Part shown: piece after piece, positions 3,240-20,372 of the stretch
Numbering within the stretch: the first letter of the stretch is position 1
Layout of the letters: each line of letters opens with the position of its first letter
Assembly (NCBI GenBank): GCA_020057185.1
Contig: JAGVGK010000025.1
Coordinates: 1 to 35,892, forward strand
DNA length: 35,892 nt
DNA from: Minisyncoccota bacterium
GTDB taxonomy: Bacteria > Patescibacteriota > Minisyncoccia > Phycocordibacterales > JACOZG01
Direction: 5' to 3'
The notes under the pieces: model-generated
What the model saw: only the letters and a program-made list of their open reading frames with translations
The model's database searches: none
Told to the model about the DNA's origin: nothing
Made by a program: the position numbers and the translations under genes

Positions 3240-5201
3240 GTGAAAGAAAAATATATTGAGGGGATGATTCGGATTTCGGGTAAAGGAGTGGGATATGTCA
3301 GCGTGGATCCGAAAGCGCCGAGCATCGAAATTGATTCCGTTAAGCTCAAAACCGCCCTCCACGGCGATCGGGTTCGCGTGCTGATTCTGCCGGAAGCGAT
3401 CGCCCCTAAAAATGGCATTGAGCAAAATCAAGCCGGCGAGGTCGTCGAGATTCTGGAACGGAAAAAGTTAGAATTCGTCGGCACTTTAGAAGATGGCGAC
3501 GGTCTCTACTATTTGGTACCGGATGATAAAAGGGTCTACAAAGACATTTTAATCAGTCCGGATAAACTCAAGGGTGGAAAAGTTGGTGATAAAGTTTTGG
3601 CGCAAATTATTAAATGGGACGATCCGAAAAAAGATCCCCTCGGCGAAGTGATTGAGGTAATTGGACAACCGGGCGCGCACGAGACTGAAATGTTAGCGAT
3701 CGTACTCGATCGCGGTTTCAAATCAATTTTCCCCGATGCCGTCGAAGCCGAAGCCCGAGCACTCAAGCAAGCCGAGACCACGAGCTTGCCCCCGCCTGAC
3801 GGACGGGCAGGCATCGAAGCTAAACTCCGTCGCGATTTCCGCGACATTCTCACTTTTACCGTTGATCCGATTGATGCTAAAGATTTTGATGATGCACTTT
3901 CTTTCCGCCCACTTCCTGATGGGAATTATGAGGTGGGAATTCACATTGCCGATGTCTCGCACTATGTCCGACCGGGCACGGCGCTTGATACTGAAGCCCG
4001 TAAAAGGGCCACTTCCATCTATCTCGTTGATCGAACCATTCCGATGCTGCCCGAAACACTCTCGAATGATTTGTGTAGTTTGAAGGCGGATGAAGACAAG
4101 CTAACTTTCTCCACCATCGTCACGATGTCACTGACTGGCGAGATTTTGAAAACTGATTTCGATAAAACAATTATCCGTTCCGCCAAACGCTTTACTTATG
4201 AAGAAGGACAGGCGGTACTTGATAGTAAAGAAGGACCTTTTGCTCCCGCCCTTCTAACGCTCAACAAGCTTGCCTATGCCTTGCGCGCGAAAAAGATTGC
4301 CGACGGTGCCATCTCGTTCGAGAATGAAGAAATTAAATTTGAACTCGATCCGACCGGCAAGCCTATTCGGGTGTACAAAAAAATGCGTACTGATATTCAC
4401 CTCTTAATCGAAGATTTTATGTTGCTGGCTAATCGGAAAGTGGCGGAATATGTTTCGAAACTTGTGCATGATGAACCGGGGCAATTCGTCTATCGCGTCC
4501 ATGATGTACCAGATCGTGATCGGCTGGAGACGCTCGCCACTTTCGTCCGCCCGCTTGGTTATCGTTTACCAATGACGAAAGAGGGGGTCACCGGTCAAGC
4601 GATTAATATTTTTCTCAAATCTGTCGCCGGCACGCCGGAAGAAAGCATGGTCCGCACGGCGACAATGCGGGCAATGGCCAAGGCAATTTATGACATGAAA
4701 AATATCGGTCATTATGGTCTTGCCTTTCCTTATTACACTCACTTCACTTCGCCAATTCGCCGTTATCCCGATCTCATGGTTCATCGCCTGCTTGATCTCT
4801 ACCGACAAGGTCAGCAACCATCAGCCGAGATGTTGGCGGATTACCGCCGACTCGCCGCGCATTGCTCGATGCGCGAAGTAGAAGCGCAAGATGCCGAGCG
4901 CGATTCGATTCGGTATAAACAAATCGAATTTATGGGCACGAAGGTGGGGCAAACTTTCACCGGCGTGATTTCGGGTCTCGCCAAGTGGGGAATTTTTATT
5001 CAAGAGAAAGAAACTCTCGCCGAAGGCATGGTGCGTTTGGCGACAATGAAAGACGACTTTTATATTTTCGATGAGAAGAATTATGCCATGGTCGGCAAAA
5101 ACACCGGCAAGAAATATCGTCTCGGCGATCCCGTCCGCGTCAAAGTGATTCGCACCGACCTCCCCGCCCGCTTCATTGACTTCGAGTTTGTGCAGGACTA
5201 A
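3240..5201 (+). CDS. rnr: ribonuclease R (GTG start)
   Basis: RNB motifs (TVDPIDAKDFDDALS, YEVGIHIADVSHYV, HFTSPIRRYPDLMVHR) and C-terminal S1-like domain. Confidence 0.96.
   Translation: MKEKYIEGMIRISGKGVGYVSVDPKAPSIEIDSVKLKTALHGDRVRVLILPEAIAPKNGIEQNQAGEVVEILERKKLEFVGTLEDGDGLYYLVPDDKRVYKDILISPDKLKGGKVGDKVLAQIIKWDDPKKDPLGEVIEVIGQPGAHETEMLAIVLDRGFKSIFPDAVEAEARALKQAETTSLPPPDGRAGIEAKLRRDFRDILTFTVDPIDAKDFDDALSFRPLPDGNYEVGIHIADVSHYVRPGTALDTEARKRATSIYLVDRTIPMLPETLSNDLCSLKADEDKLTFSTIVTMSLTGEILKTDFDKTIIRSAKRFTYEEGQAVLDSKEGPFAPALLTLNKLAYALRAKKIADGAISFENEEIKFELDPTGKPIRVYKKMRTDIHLLIEDFMLLANRKVAEYVSKLVHDEPGQFVYRVHDVPDRDRLETLATFVRPLGYRLPMTKEGVTGQAINIFLKSVAGTPEESMVRTATMRAMAKAIYDMKNIGHYGLAFPYYTHFTSPIRRYPDLMVHRLLDLYRQGQQPSAEMLADYRRLAAHCSMREVEAQDAERDSIRYKQIEFMGTKVGQTFTGVISGLAKWGIFIQEKETLAEGMVRLATMKDDFYIFDEKNYAMVGKNTGKKYRLGDPVRVKVIRTDLPARFIDFEFVQD
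3794..3812. repeat. palindrome GCCTGACGGACGGGCAGGC inside rnr
   Basis: GCCTG...CAGGC stem; encodes PPPDGRAG between conserved RNase R blocks. Confidence 0.6.
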
Positions 5202-5218
5202 CTATCTGACACCAACTA

Positions 5219-5258
5219 ATTATTCCATCCTTACACGATCGTGAGGAGTTGGTATAAT
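5219..5258. repeat. 40-bp tripartite dyad, copy 1
   Basis: ATTATTCC-atcctta-CACGATCGTG-aggagtt-GGTATAAT, in the convergent rnr/smc gap. Confidence 0.8.
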
Positions 5259-5284: not shown

Positions 5285-7513
5285 TTATTGTTTCGCATAC
5301 TCCACCGCTTGGTCGAGTTTGATGGAAAGGAGGCGAGAGATGCCGTCCGAGCCCATCGTCACGCCGTAGATGACACCGGCGTGGGACATCGTCTCGCGGT
5401 TATGGGTAATGAGAATCAGTTGCGAGTGTTGGGCGAGCGTCTCCACCATCTCGCCATAACGGCGCGAGTTGGCTTCGTCGAGCGCCGCGTCGGTCTCGTC
5501 GAGAATCAGGAAGGGCGGCGGATTGACTTGCGACATTGCGAAGAGAAGCGCGATCGAAGTCAACGCCCGCTCGCCACCCGAGAGCATCTCGAGACCCTTG
5601 ATGCGCTTGCGTGGCAAGGTGACGGACACTTCCACACCACGGATTTCTTCTTGATCACTATCTTCATCAGCTTCTTTATTATTATCTCCAGCTAAAGTGT
5701 CCTCTTCATCCCCCCTTGATCGCCGATCAATTGTGAGCAAGAGAGACGCCGTTCCGCCGTCAAAAAGGATGGCGAAAAATTCTTGAAATTGCTGGCTAAT
5801 TTTTTCGAGACCTTGATCAAATTCCACCGCACACTTTTGTTTCAAATCAATTAAAACTAGCTGGAGCGAAGCGATACTCCTGACCAAATCCTCCGTTTCT
5901 CGAGCCAAGAAAGCGTCTCGTTCGCTCACCTGCTGATGCTCGGTCGCCACCTCGCGATTCTCTACCCCCATATCTTCCAATTGAATTTTCAGTCGTTCGA
6001 TTTGACGGCGATTGGCTTCTTGTTTTTCACGATCAGCCATCTCTCCCGCCGGCACGAGCTCGGCAAAGCGGAGTAGTTCACGATCCGTGAGCAGGACCGC
6101 CTCGTCAAGTTCAATCTGGAAGCGCGCTTCGTCGCGCGCTAGAGTTTCTTCGCGCGCCGCGAACGCGGCGCGCTCGGTCTGACATTCCGCTTGCTTAAGT
6201 TTCAGTTCAAAAATTTCCCGTTCGGCGCCTTGCCTAGTTTCCCGCTCTTGCTCCCAAACATTCCGCGCCGTTTTGCGTTCCGCTTCCAGTTTAACAAATT
6301 CATCTGCCAATGCCGTTAATTTCTGATTAAGTTTTTCCCGTTCGGATTTCAATTTTTCCAACGCTTCGTTCCGCTCTCGCGATTGATTGACATCGCTGTT
6401 GCCACCCAAAGCTTTCAATCGTTGCCCCAATTCGGCGACTTTAACCAAGACGGCGCGGAGTTGCCCCAGATCATCAAGCGCCCCGGCGCCGGCAAGAGTA
6501 GCTTCCAGTTCGTTCGCTAAAATTGCCACCTCTGATTTGGCTACCATCTCTTCGCCCTTCGATTGAGAGACACTTTCCCACGCTTCCACTTGCCCCTCCA
6601 ATCGCCCCACGGTGCGGTTAATCTCGTTGCGTTCTTCGGCTAACCGCCTTAAGTGGTCATCAAGACCGCGAAGTTTATCCGCCAACGGCGAATCAGTGTG
6701 CGCCGAACCTTTTTCCTGCGCGAGCGCTTCGAGCCGAGCGGTAATTCCGGCTAATTTTATTCGTGGTCCAGCGCTAACTTTTTCTACCACCTGTCTTTCA
6801 TTGATTAAATATCGTTTCTCAGCGGAAAAATATTCGAGACACCGACGCTTGAGTTCGGCGCGCAACGATTGCGATCGTTCGATCTTCTCCATCTCCTTCT
6901 TGAGAAACCGGAGGTGGGGCGCAATTTCTCGACGCAAGAGCTCGACTTCGCGAAGATTGATTTGCGTCTTTTCTAATTTCCGTTCGCTTTCTAAAATTTG
7001 CGACTGATAAATCTTCAAACCCAAGGCGTCTTCAATCATTTGCCGTCGCTCCACCCCATTAGCGCTTAAAATTCGATCTGCTTCGCCTTGACTCATAATG
7101 TGATAACCAGAAGCGCCGATCGAGACCGCGTTGAGCAAGGTTGTGATATCGCGAAGCCGAACCGGCGAACCGTTAATCGTGTAAACATTCGTCCCGTCGC
7201 GATGCACTTCCCGACCAATCGTCACTTCATCATAATCGAGAGGAAATTTGTGATCGTGATTGTCGAACGAAACACTCACGCCGGCGCGATTGGCTCGACC
7301 AGTCCCACTGCCATTCCAAATAAAATCTTCGCCACGTCGTCCGCGAAGCGATTTGAGAGACTGTTCGCCCAGCACCCACCGACACGCTTCGGCAATATTG
7401 GACTTGCCCGAACCGTTCGGACCGACCACTGCCGTAATTGGCGCTTCGAACAGCAGTTTCGTCTTCTTGGCAAAAGATTTGAAACCGGTCAGTTCGAGGG
7501 CCGTCAATCGCAT
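5285..7513 (-). CDS. SMC-like ATPase (short, apparently hinge-less)
   Basis: Walker A GPNGSGKSN, signature LSGGERALTSIALLFA, Walker B FLILDETDAALDEAN; 742 aa, coiled-coil middle. Confidence 0.9.
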   Translation of the reverse strand: MRLTALELTGFKSFAKKTKLLFEAPITAVVGPNGSGKSNIAEACRWVLGEQSLKSLRGRRGEDFIWNGSGTGRANRAGVSVSFDNHDHKFPLDYDEVTIGREVHRDGTNVYTINGSPVRLRDITTLLNAVSIGASGYHIMSQGEADRILSANGVERRQMIEDALGLKIYQSQILESERKLEKTQINLREVELLRREIAPHLRFLKKEMEKIERSQSLRAELKRRCLEYFSAEKRYLINERQVVEKVSAGPRIKLAGITARLEALAQEKGSAHTDSPLADKLRGLDDHLRRLAEERNEINRTVGRLEGQVEAWESVSQSKGEEMVAKSEVAILANELEATLAGAGALDDLGQLRAVLVKVAELGQRLKALGGNSDVNQSRERNEALEKLKSEREKLNQKLTALADEFVKLEAERKTARNVWEQERETRQGAEREIFELKLKQAECQTERAAFAAREETLARDEARFQIELDEAVLLTDRELLRFAELVPAGEMADREKQEANRRQIERLKIQLEDMGVENREVATEHQQVSERDAFLARETEDLVRSIASLQLVLIDLKQKCAVEFDQGLEKISQQFQEFFAILFDGGTASLLLTIDRRSRGDEEDTLAGDNNKEADEDSDQEEIRGVEVSVTLPRKRIKGLEMLSGGERALTSIALLFAMSQVNPPPFLILDETDAALDEANSRRYGEMVETLAQHSQLILITHNRETMSHAGVIYGVTMGSDGISRLLSIKLDQAVEYAKQ
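6121..6173. repeat. two adjacent GC-rich hairpins inside the SMC-like gene
   Basis: AGCGCGC-TTCGTC-GCGCGCT (6121-6140) and GCGCGCCGC-GAAC-GCGGCGCGC (6152-6173), both perfect stems. Confidence 0.6.
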
Positions 7514-10624: not shown

Positions 10625-10664
10625 CCTATACCACATCCGCACGATCGTAGAGTTATGGATAGGA
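10625..10664. repeat. 40-bp tripartite dyad, copy 2 (divergent)
   Basis: CCTATACC-acatccg-CACGATCGTA-gagttat-GGATAGGA, between rnhB and the secreted-protein gene. Confidence 0.7.
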
Positions 10665-18503: not shown

Positions 18504-18637
18504 TGTTTATGATGTCTAATTCTACCATTTTTCCACCCCTCCATACACTTGACAACAAAACTCGAATATGCTAGCCTAAAGGCGGATGGTTGGCGCGGCT
18601 GACCAATTTTGAACAACAAGAAATAGGAGATAACTGC

Positions 18638-18949
18638 ATGAGATCCGAGAGAAAAACGAAGCAAATCACAAATCAACAGGAGAGAATGTCGAACCTTGTT
18701 GATCTGAAGTCTGAAGATCCCATCGAAGCAGTCATCAGGGCATTGGACCTTTGTGCCCCAATTCAAGAATGTCTCAAGCTCTTGACTTATCGGGAGCGCG
18801 AGACCATCAGACTACGCTTTGGTATCGAGGATGGTTACACTCATACCGGCGAAGAGATTGGCAAGCTACTTGGAGTGACTCGCGAAAGAGTCAGGCAACT
18901 AGAGGCGAAGGCTATCAGAAAACTGTGGGGTTTCCTTGCTTCTCGTTGA
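18638..18949 (+). CDS. stand-alone sigma-70 region 4-like HTH protein
   Basis: [48 protein letters not shown] is sigma-70 region 4; SD AGGAG before ATG at 18638; TTGACA-17-TAGCCT promoter upstream. Confidence 0.85.
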
Positions 18950-19047: not shown

Positions 19048-19087
19048 AATATACCATAACGCCACGATCGTGTAATTACGGTATAAT
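19048..19087. repeat. 40-bp tripartite dyad, copy 3
   Basis: AATATACC-ataacgc-CACGATCGTG-taattac-GGTATAAT. Confidence 0.85.
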
Positions 19088-19105
19088 TTAGTTAAACCAA
19101 ATTAT

Positions 19106-19687
19106 TCAAGATTCGAGTTGGAAATGTAATTTTAATTCTGCTTCGTTGGTCGGATTTAATAATTCGCCGTAACGGACAAAAGGGCGAAGTTCGAAAAATT
19201 CGACAATAAAATCAATTTGATCGCGACAAGGGTAAGGGTAAACAAAAACTGATTTCTGCCATTCATAAAAACCAAGTTCGCGAAGTTTGAGTCGAAGAGC
19301 ATCTCGACCGCGACGCTTCTTCTCTGGCACATCAAAAAACACTAGGTGCCATCGCCCGTCCCAACGAGTTGGTTTAGAAATGGTGAGATTATCAATATTG
19401 GCTTGAATAACTCTTCTCTGCCCCGCTTCGGTTAAAACAATTTTAATGGAACCATCTTGATGTTCCCGATATTCTATCAACCGACCATATTTAAATTCGT
19501 TCAAAACACGATACAGATACTGGCGATCAATTTTCTTCCATTCTCTAGCCATAGAACGAATAATAAAACTCTGTTTACTAACCGATCGTGTCATACTTAA
19601 AGTTATTCCCGCTTCTAAAAGCAATAAAATTTTCTGCTTACGCGGACTACGCCAAACCTGTGTTCCTTTAGTTTTAATTCTAGCCAT
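19106..19687 (-). CDS. PaaX-like HTH protein with Cas2-like ferredoxin-fold C-terminal domain
   Basis: N-terminal winged-HTH-like; C-terminal RWDGRWHLVFFDVPEKKRRGRDALRLKLRELGFYEWQKSVFVYPYPC typical of PaaX/Cas2-like domain; start trimmed to ATG at 19687. Confidence 0.8.
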   Translation of the reverse strand: MARIKTKGTQVWRSPRKQKILLLLEAGITLSMTRSVSKQSFIIRSMAREWKKIDRQYLYRVLNEFKYGRLIEYREHQDGSIKIVLTEAGQRRVIQANIDNLTISKPTRWDGRWHLVFFDVPEKKRRGRDALRLKLRELGFYEWQKSVFVYPYPCRDQIDFIVEFFELRPFVRYGELLNPTNEAELKLHFQLES

Positions 19688-19694
19688 AAAGCTA

Positions 19695-19734
19695 ATTATA
19701 CTATAACGCCACGATCGTGTAAGTACCGTATAAT
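19695..19734. repeat. 40-bp tripartite dyad, copy 4, overlapping the PaaX-like gene promoter
   Basis: ATTATACT-ataacgc-CACGATCGTG-taagtac-CGTATAAT; minus-strand TATAAT (19700-19695) ends 7 nt before the ATG. Confidence 0.85.
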
Positions 19735-19743
19735 CTAAAAACA

Positions 19744-19777
19744 CAAATAAAAGCCCCGGGCGAGTGGCGCGGGGCTT
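19744..19777 (-). terminator. terminator of the 19776 gene
   Basis: AAGCCCCG...CGGGGCTTTTATTT on minus strand. Confidence 0.65.
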
Positions 19778-20372
19778 AAACGATCATAAGGACAACAACA
19801 TCATCGGGTCCGAAAGACTCGGTCAACTTCCGAGAACGCGAGCTTAAACGATCGTCAAGAAGATAAAGACCGCGAACCCGTTCAAACATATTCTCGTCAC
19901 GATAGGTCGTGCCGGGAAACCAAATGTTACGGTTTTTGTTGCCCCTTAACCACTCCAACCAAGAGATAGGTAAATATCTGGGATGTCGCCGGGCCCAATC
20001 AAGGATACAAGCATTGGCCGCGTGCCGATCTCTAATCCATTTAATTAGCTTCCTGACGAGGACTCGTTTACCGCTCTCTTGAATCTCCGACTGATAGAGT
20101 TCAAATTCAGTCGGGTTCCAAACCCATGGTTTTAAACTTCGATTATGTCTACATTTTTCTAAACCATGAACTGAACAGGGATCAAGGTCTGTTTTGATTA
20201 TCAGATCAATCTCTACAATTTCCCTAATTCCCTCCAACGCTTCACGGACTAAGCACAGGAAACACGGATCGAGCAAGCGCGCGGCGTGTTCAGTGGTAAA
20301 GCCGGCTCTTTCCATGGCTCGCTGTAGTTGCAAGAGATATTCAAGTTCGAGTTTTAGTTTATCATCGCTCAT
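19776..20372 (-). CDS. hypothetical protein
   Basis: ORF with strong SD (AAAGGAGG, spacer, ATG) and own terminator. Confidence 0.6.
   Translation of the reverse strand: MSDDKLKLELEYLLQLQRAMERAGFTTEHAARLLDPCFLCLVREALEGIREIVEIDLIIKTDLDPCSVHGLEKCRHNRSLKPWVWNPTEFELYQSEIQESGKRVLVRKLIKWIRDRHAANACILDWARRHPRYLPISWLEWLRGNKNRNIWFPGTTYRDENMFERVRGLYLLDDRLSSRSRKLTESFGPDDVVVLMIV

Follow-up and report, generated by a model that had tools for sequence, protein, structure and literature searches.

Palindrome-bracketed PaaX/Cas2-like genes of Patescibacteria as candidate REP/RAYT-like elements

Repetitive extragenic palindromes (REPs) and the REP-associated tyrosine transposases (RAYTs) are the closest described parallel to the locus considered here. 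In that system, an open reading frame (ORF) lies between two REPs, palindrome and protein co-evolve, the abundance of the palindromes is tied to the gene, and the palindromes combine into bacterial interspersed mosaic elements, BIMEs (PMC2817692). Our locus is a short PaaX/Cas2-like gene bracketed by two 40-bp tripartite palindromes. It lies in a 35,892-nucleotide stretch (contig JAGVGK010000025.1, positions 1 to 35,892; the whole stretch is referred to as the window) from a 783-kb Minisyncoccota genome (G000), whose nearest named relatives are Candidatus Vogelbacteria. We lean towards the interpretation that it represents a selfish palindrome system of the REP/RAYT type, in which a Cas2-like protein replaces the Y1 transposase and the upstream palindrome also acts as promoter-operator. 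The locus would then belong, with slightly better than even probability, to a large family of small selfish elements of Patescibacteria which seed lone cognate palindromes. Palindrome-bracketed PaaX/Cas2 genes are not described in the open-access literature searched, a coverage that leaves out most subscription papers and preprints.

The observation of an earlier note on this DNA is confirmed and turns out to be far larger than noted. The note had described the gene as bracketed by two near-identical palindromes, and the upstream (U) and downstream (D) copies indeed agree at 36 of 40 positions, the latter starting 18 nt beyond the stop codon, just past the 3′ end of the gene. From the proposed tripartite consensus, the CACGATCGTG centres are present in both copies; the exact consensus has no perfect match, each copy being a few bases off. 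The minus-strand TATAAT lies where it had been placed, 7 nt ahead of the ATG at 19687, and CTTACA-17-TATAAT scores 10/12, with the central palindrome located within the 17-bp spacer. Because the −10 hexamer ends so close to the start codon, the mRNA is likely leaderless. Such a layout fits autorepression, with the upstream palindrome doubling as the predicted promoter-operator of the gene. Known RNA families were rejected as an account of the palindromes, the scan of the window giving one tRNA only. Beyond the earlier note, the window holds two further lone palindromes, and the same architecture is present at all other complete PaaX-like genes of G000. There are eight PaaX_M genes in this genome, and each of the seven complete ones found by PF20803 lies between a palindrome pair of its own. 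The cores of these palindromes are mostly ACGRYCGT, and every family (F1 to F8; Table 1) has private outer arms.

Within the class, 167 of 286 genomes carry homologues of the gene, with at most 13 copies, as do 79 of 240 genomes sampled over the phylum. One genus has the family in 59 of 60 genomes, the copy number ranging from 0 to 19. A U/D pair identical at 26 or more of 40 positions was found class-wide at 56 of 62 genes, compared with 15 of 400 mismatched controls, in which upstream and downstream windows were drawn from different genes; the pairing in the window is therefore not due to chance. With a larger set and a limit of at least 30/40, the values are 63/129 genes and 3/600 controls. 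The elements have a median length of 678 bp (range 613–786). Many of the palindromes are perfect across 40 bp, and the observed cores are ACGATCGT, ACGGCCGT, CCGATCGG, GCTATAGC, GCGATCGC, GCATATGC and GCCATGGC. The cores of the two ends are identical in all 47 pairs of the strict set, which is partly by construction, since these pairs were chosen on U/D likeness; in the unselected set they are identical in 47 of 72, with some centres mis-picked.

In the phylum sample, short proteins are bracketed in 16 of 21 cases, and among eight long ones (≥241 aa) a single case reaches the threshold, barely and with a non-palindromic match. A subfamily of ~123 aa, with the Cas2-like domain but without a recognisable winged helix-turn-helix (wHTH), is likewise bracketed, in units of ~450–490 bp with GCCATGGC, ACCATGGT or GCTATAGC cores, so that the Cas2-like domain without a recognisable wHTH suffices for this architecture. 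When the short version is included, the elements of the family measure about 0.45–0.79 kb. An internal control is provided by the many-copy genus g43 (e.g., L103, L106, L109, L142), where a PaaX paralogue with the diagnostic changes L118, K144 and Y/F154 is largely single-copy, unbracketed and conserved in place. This paralogue looks domesticated or ancestral, and a GCGACCAC/GCGACCGC-containing sequence upstream of it may be its operator. Family members with in-frame stops (L305, L315, L117) are decaying copies, two of which (L305 and L315) are still bracketed. A search of IMG/VR gave one relative of the protein, on a 38.6-kb viral contig (L238, IMGVR_UViG_3300031949_000100), which has a single ACGGCCGT-core palindrome just downstream; upstream of it, no palindrome was seen. 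In the plasmid search, the matches covered only 21–25% of the query and fell in large actinobacterial PaaX proteins.

Besides the pairs, palindromes also occur without a gene. In G000, 28 lone copies can be assigned to the eight gene families plus one further family that has no gene; such counts, taken from model matches and targeted stretches, are lower bounds. Different palindrome families often adjoin in mosaic arrays. An example is the F5-then-F2 composite with a related spacer, found at four loci (contigs C45, C40, C8 and C16; L211–L214) and once joined by F7 as a third member. In three of the four composites, a similar TTTTTCATTGCCAAAAAACG stretch, itself located behind a terminator-like stem, comes before the pair. 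The earlier note had proposed to ask whether the motif tracks with the gene: a covariance model of the palindromes (CM, R1) matches 12 of 14 relatives with the gene versus 4 of 27 without it, a comparison that favours gene-bearing genomes, because the model was trained on palindromes from them, and in which gene presence rests on a protein search (P0001), so that divergent homologues may hide among the gene-negative genomes.

The positions of the lone sites bear on the first alternative, namely that the genes are an ordinary autorepressor family, with one operator in the promoter and a second behind the gene for looping, insulation or a transcription roadblock. On this reading, the lone sites belong to a regulon or organise the chromosome, and the spread of the genes results from duplication and ordinary recombination. 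It is the main rival, which we consider unlikely but serious. PaaX is a family of transcription regulators, the predicted promoter lies in the upstream palindrome with the core separating its −35 and −10 hexamers, and the two sites and the protein co-evolve. In the upstream copies, −10-like hexamers are more frequent towards the gene (22/47) than on the opposite side (7/47) or in the downstream copies (12/47). However, by a rough gene calling, none of the lone sites with both neighbours called lies between divergent genes; the genes around them are convergent or in tandem, and many of the sites closely follow a 3′ end. The lone F1 palindrome of the window, for instance, stands between a gene with an RNB domain (3240–5201, plus strand) and a convergent SMC/RecN-type gene (5285–7513, minus strand). 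Mosaic arrays of mixed families with related spacers resemble dispersed DNA rather than a regulon, and the version without a recognisable wHTH is bracketed too. The earlier note had offered an autoregulated regulator or a mobile unit as alternatives, and the evidence partly supports each, favouring both together.

Dispersal as a unit is visible where occupied sites are compared with empty ones, as the note had also suggested; both loci compared are short in relatives without the element. The L156 element separates its upstream gene from thrS, where the same gap measures ~40–50 bp in several sister species and holds a different element (L171) in G364. Units related to L156 (~690 bp, 74–78% identical) are present at other places and match the query from 720 to 1418, which is from palindrome to palindrome; the likeness between related units at different loci ends near the palindromes, a pattern that also speaks against the autorepressor explanation. 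The gyrB-pheS gap of the window locus is 1.98 kb in G000 versus 71 bp in G001, a genome without a family member by protein search and without palindromes by model search. This gap in the window also contains an ORF with sigma70 region 4 (18590–18949) and a 198-aa ORF without Pfam match (19776–20372). In G002, an orthologous element stands beside pheS, both palindromes of which have CCGATCGG, versus ACGATCGT in both G000 copies; the two palindromes therefore change in concert. Across 47 elements, the similarity of the palindromes correlates with the identity of the proteins (rho 0.44, Mantel test, 0/999 permutations), and that of the 40 bp outside the palindromes does not (rho 0.04).

Table 1. 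Features of the window, PaaX_M genes of the source genome and Y1_Tnp loci.
Feature	Position or contig	Strand	Basis or remark
Short PaaX/Cas2-like gene, 193 aa	19106..19687	-	PF20803 E=1.7e-21, AlphaFold2 model, Foldseek
Protein layout: N-terminal helical/winged-helix part, central Cas2-like domain with Asp119	19106..19687	-	
Upstream 40-bp tripartite palindrome (U), family F1	19695..19734	-	CM 32.3 bits; putative promoter-operator and one element end
Downstream 40-bp palindrome (D), family F1	19048..19087	-	CM 39 bits; opposite element end
Central palindrome CACGATCGTG of upstream copy	19710..19719		inside −35/−10 spacer
Central palindrome CACGATCGTG of downstream copy	19063..19072		
−35-like hexamer CTTACA	19718..19723	-	promoter scan, consensus match only
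−10-like hexamer TATAAT	19695..19700	-	made by outer arm of palindrome
Lone F1 palindrome	5219..5258		30/40 to F1
Lone F4 palindrome	10625..10664		37/40 to F4; F4 gene on other contig (C23)
F1 gene (window gene)	C3		
F2 gene (L001)	C2		starts 24 nt after its upstream palindrome; cut by contig end
F3 gene	C34		
F4 gene	C23		
F5 gene	C5		
F6 and F7 genes	C29		
F8 gene	C16		
Y1_Tnp loci	G000: L322–L329; G002, G016, G029, G372: L330–L341		

Several observations weigh against a selfish, mobile nature of the elements. Neither a clean target-site duplication nor an excision product was seen. Long direct repeats at L110, L124 and L154 were considered as candidate target-site duplications, but those at L110 (53 bp) and L124 (40 bp), which are exact, stand on both sides and copy the 3′ end of the neighbouring gene, are missing in relatives that have these neighbours at the same locus. 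Orthologues of several elements occur in more than one species, with co-evolving palindrome pairs, which makes these elements long-lived and perhaps useful to the host. Asp119, the Cas2 aspartate, is also retained in the unbracketed single-copy paralogue and is thus no marker of mobility. Finally, each of the five element-bearing genomes tested has Y1_Tnp genes (3–8), and the element-free G001 has none.

Because of this co-occurrence, action of Y1 in trans stands as a rival: RAYT-like Y1 transposases of the same genomes would move the palindromes, with the Cas2-like protein as a passenger or repressor. We regard it as quite improbable. None of 20 Y1 loci is flanked by a PaaX-type palindrome, save one lone site ~1.1 kb away, and about half of the Y1 genes have short palindromes of a different sequence, such as GTTGAACACTCGGTGTTCAAC, on both sides. 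The private palindrome of each Cas2-like family fits the Cas2-like protein itself as the specificity factor. The Y1 genes (mostly 209–256 aa) and these palindromes form a second, separate palindrome system in these genomes.

The pairing within the palindromes bears on a further alternative, a Cas2/VapD-like toxin or defence nuclease within an addiction or immunity module, for which the palindromes would be recognition sites in DNA or, as hairpins, in its own mRNA. Nucleases and the VapD toxin are found among Cas2-family members, Asp119 is conserved, and several palindromes are perfect 40-bp hairpins, but we give this explanation very little probability. When plotted by distance from the centre, pairing is present in the 8-bp core, falls at positions 5–7 and returns in the arms (8–18), as in a tripartite DNA site; this profile is easier to reconcile with protein-DNA recognition than with an uninterrupted RNA stem. 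The excess of G·T over A·C at unmatched positions is mild (97:72), giving little sign of an RNA hairpin, and with the spacer unpaired, the RNA-hairpin reading was rejected. At the loci read, no recurring antitoxin partner was found, although no systematic search was made.

For a REP/RAYT-like system, the following mechanism can be proposed. A protein dimer would bind the tripartite palindrome, contacting both the conserved core of 8 bp and the outer arms, which are specific to each family. On the upstream copy, the dimer would block the promoter embedded in the palindrome, leading to autoregulation. At paired or lone palindromes, the protein may nick or cut the DNA, or remodel hairpin-extruded DNA, and the palindrome-ended DNA would then be copied to or captured at new sites, mostly 3′-intergenic. 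We infer DNA binding, cleavage and movement by the Cas2-like protein, as opposed to host repair or another transposase. That this protein by itself, with neither Cas1 nor a known transposase, acts as the mobility enzyme of phylum-wide palindrome-ended elements, and is a Cas2-type DNA recogniser outside CRISPR, is a tentative proposal which we place somewhat below an even chance. Asp119 could serve in catalysis: W109, D119, R128, Q144 and F189 are invariant in an alignment of 70 sequences, and the aspartate is present in 127 of 128 homologues. Since it is substituted in both actinobacterial PaaX regulators examined (n=2) but kept in the unbracketed paralogue, catalysis is offered here only as a hypothesis.

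If correct, this interpretation would assign Cas2-fold proteins a new function beyond CRISPR and would put a name to a major family of dispersed repeats in Patescibacteria, a group that is among the largest and least studied in the bacteria. Up to 19 such genes can be present in one of their small genomes. At 123 aa, the short version lends itself to straightforward biochemistry, and the private palindromes of the many families would provide a ready-made specificity code.

Among known proteins, PaaX is the nearest in structure. The confident AlphaFold2 model of the window protein (pLDDT, predicted local distance difference test, 89.8) has E. coli PaaX (8a39) as its top Foldseek match (E 6.6e-4), followed by Cas2 structures; a PDB sequence search with the single window protein as query gave no match. 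PaaX_M is shared, as is an operator-like palindrome in the promoter. The description "PaaX/Cas2-like" in the earlier note holds with a qualification: PaaX_M is the strong Pfam match and Cas2 the weaker one, and plain "PaaX" is inexact, as the N- and C-terminal PaaX domains are absent. A canonical PaaX has ~300 aa with PF07848, PF20803 and a C-terminal PaaX domain, whereas the window protein has 193 aa with PF20803 alone above the cut-off. Its gene is found beside gyrB, the sigma70_r4 ORF and pheS, with no paa genes, and it keeps the Cas2 aspartate.

Cas2 and VapD share with the family the ferredoxin-like Cas2 fold, the invariant Asp and a Q-x-S-V motif. Against the Cas2 profiles, the window protein reaches 25.6 bits with TIGR01573, just above the cut-off, and falls just below it with PF09827. 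Unlike in Cas2, the domain is fused to a winged-helix-like N-terminus in most members, and the gene is bracketed by palindromes and has no adjoining Cas1. Of five element-bearing genomes tested, four lack Cas1 (PF01867), and the sole G000 match lies on another contig (C30); a Cas1-Cas2 partnership was rejected, as four element-rich genomes lack Cas1. The matches to PF01867 are Cas1-like fragments at G000:C30:30399-30740 and G001:C7:209033-209455, the latter with stop codons.

The IS200/IS605 elements and miniature inverted-repeat transposable elements (MITEs) are similar as sub-1-kb units with one gene, palindromic ends and non-autonomous lone ends. They differ in that here no Y1 match or target-site signature was found, and the ends are whole palindromes rather than terminal inverted repeats. 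The greatest resemblance is to the REP/RAYT systems (REPtrons, BIMEs; PMC2817692, PMC8266576): a single ORF is flanked by two cognate palindromes, lone cognate palindromes are intergenic and form mosaic arrays, palindrome and protein co-evolve, and palindromes are abundant where the gene is present. The differences lie in the ~40-bp tripartite palindromes with an 8-bp core, in the many families of low copy number, and in the protein, which is PaaX/Cas2-like; the Pfam scan of the window protein gave PaaX_M and Cas2 only and no known transposase, Y1/HUH included, and the RAYT-like genes are separate loci of the same genomes. As the architecture is that of REP/RAYT and the protein is unrelated by these searches, the family works like the REP/RAYT family rather than belonging to it, and the REP/RAYT way of life would, if this is true, have evolved more than once, with an unrelated protein.
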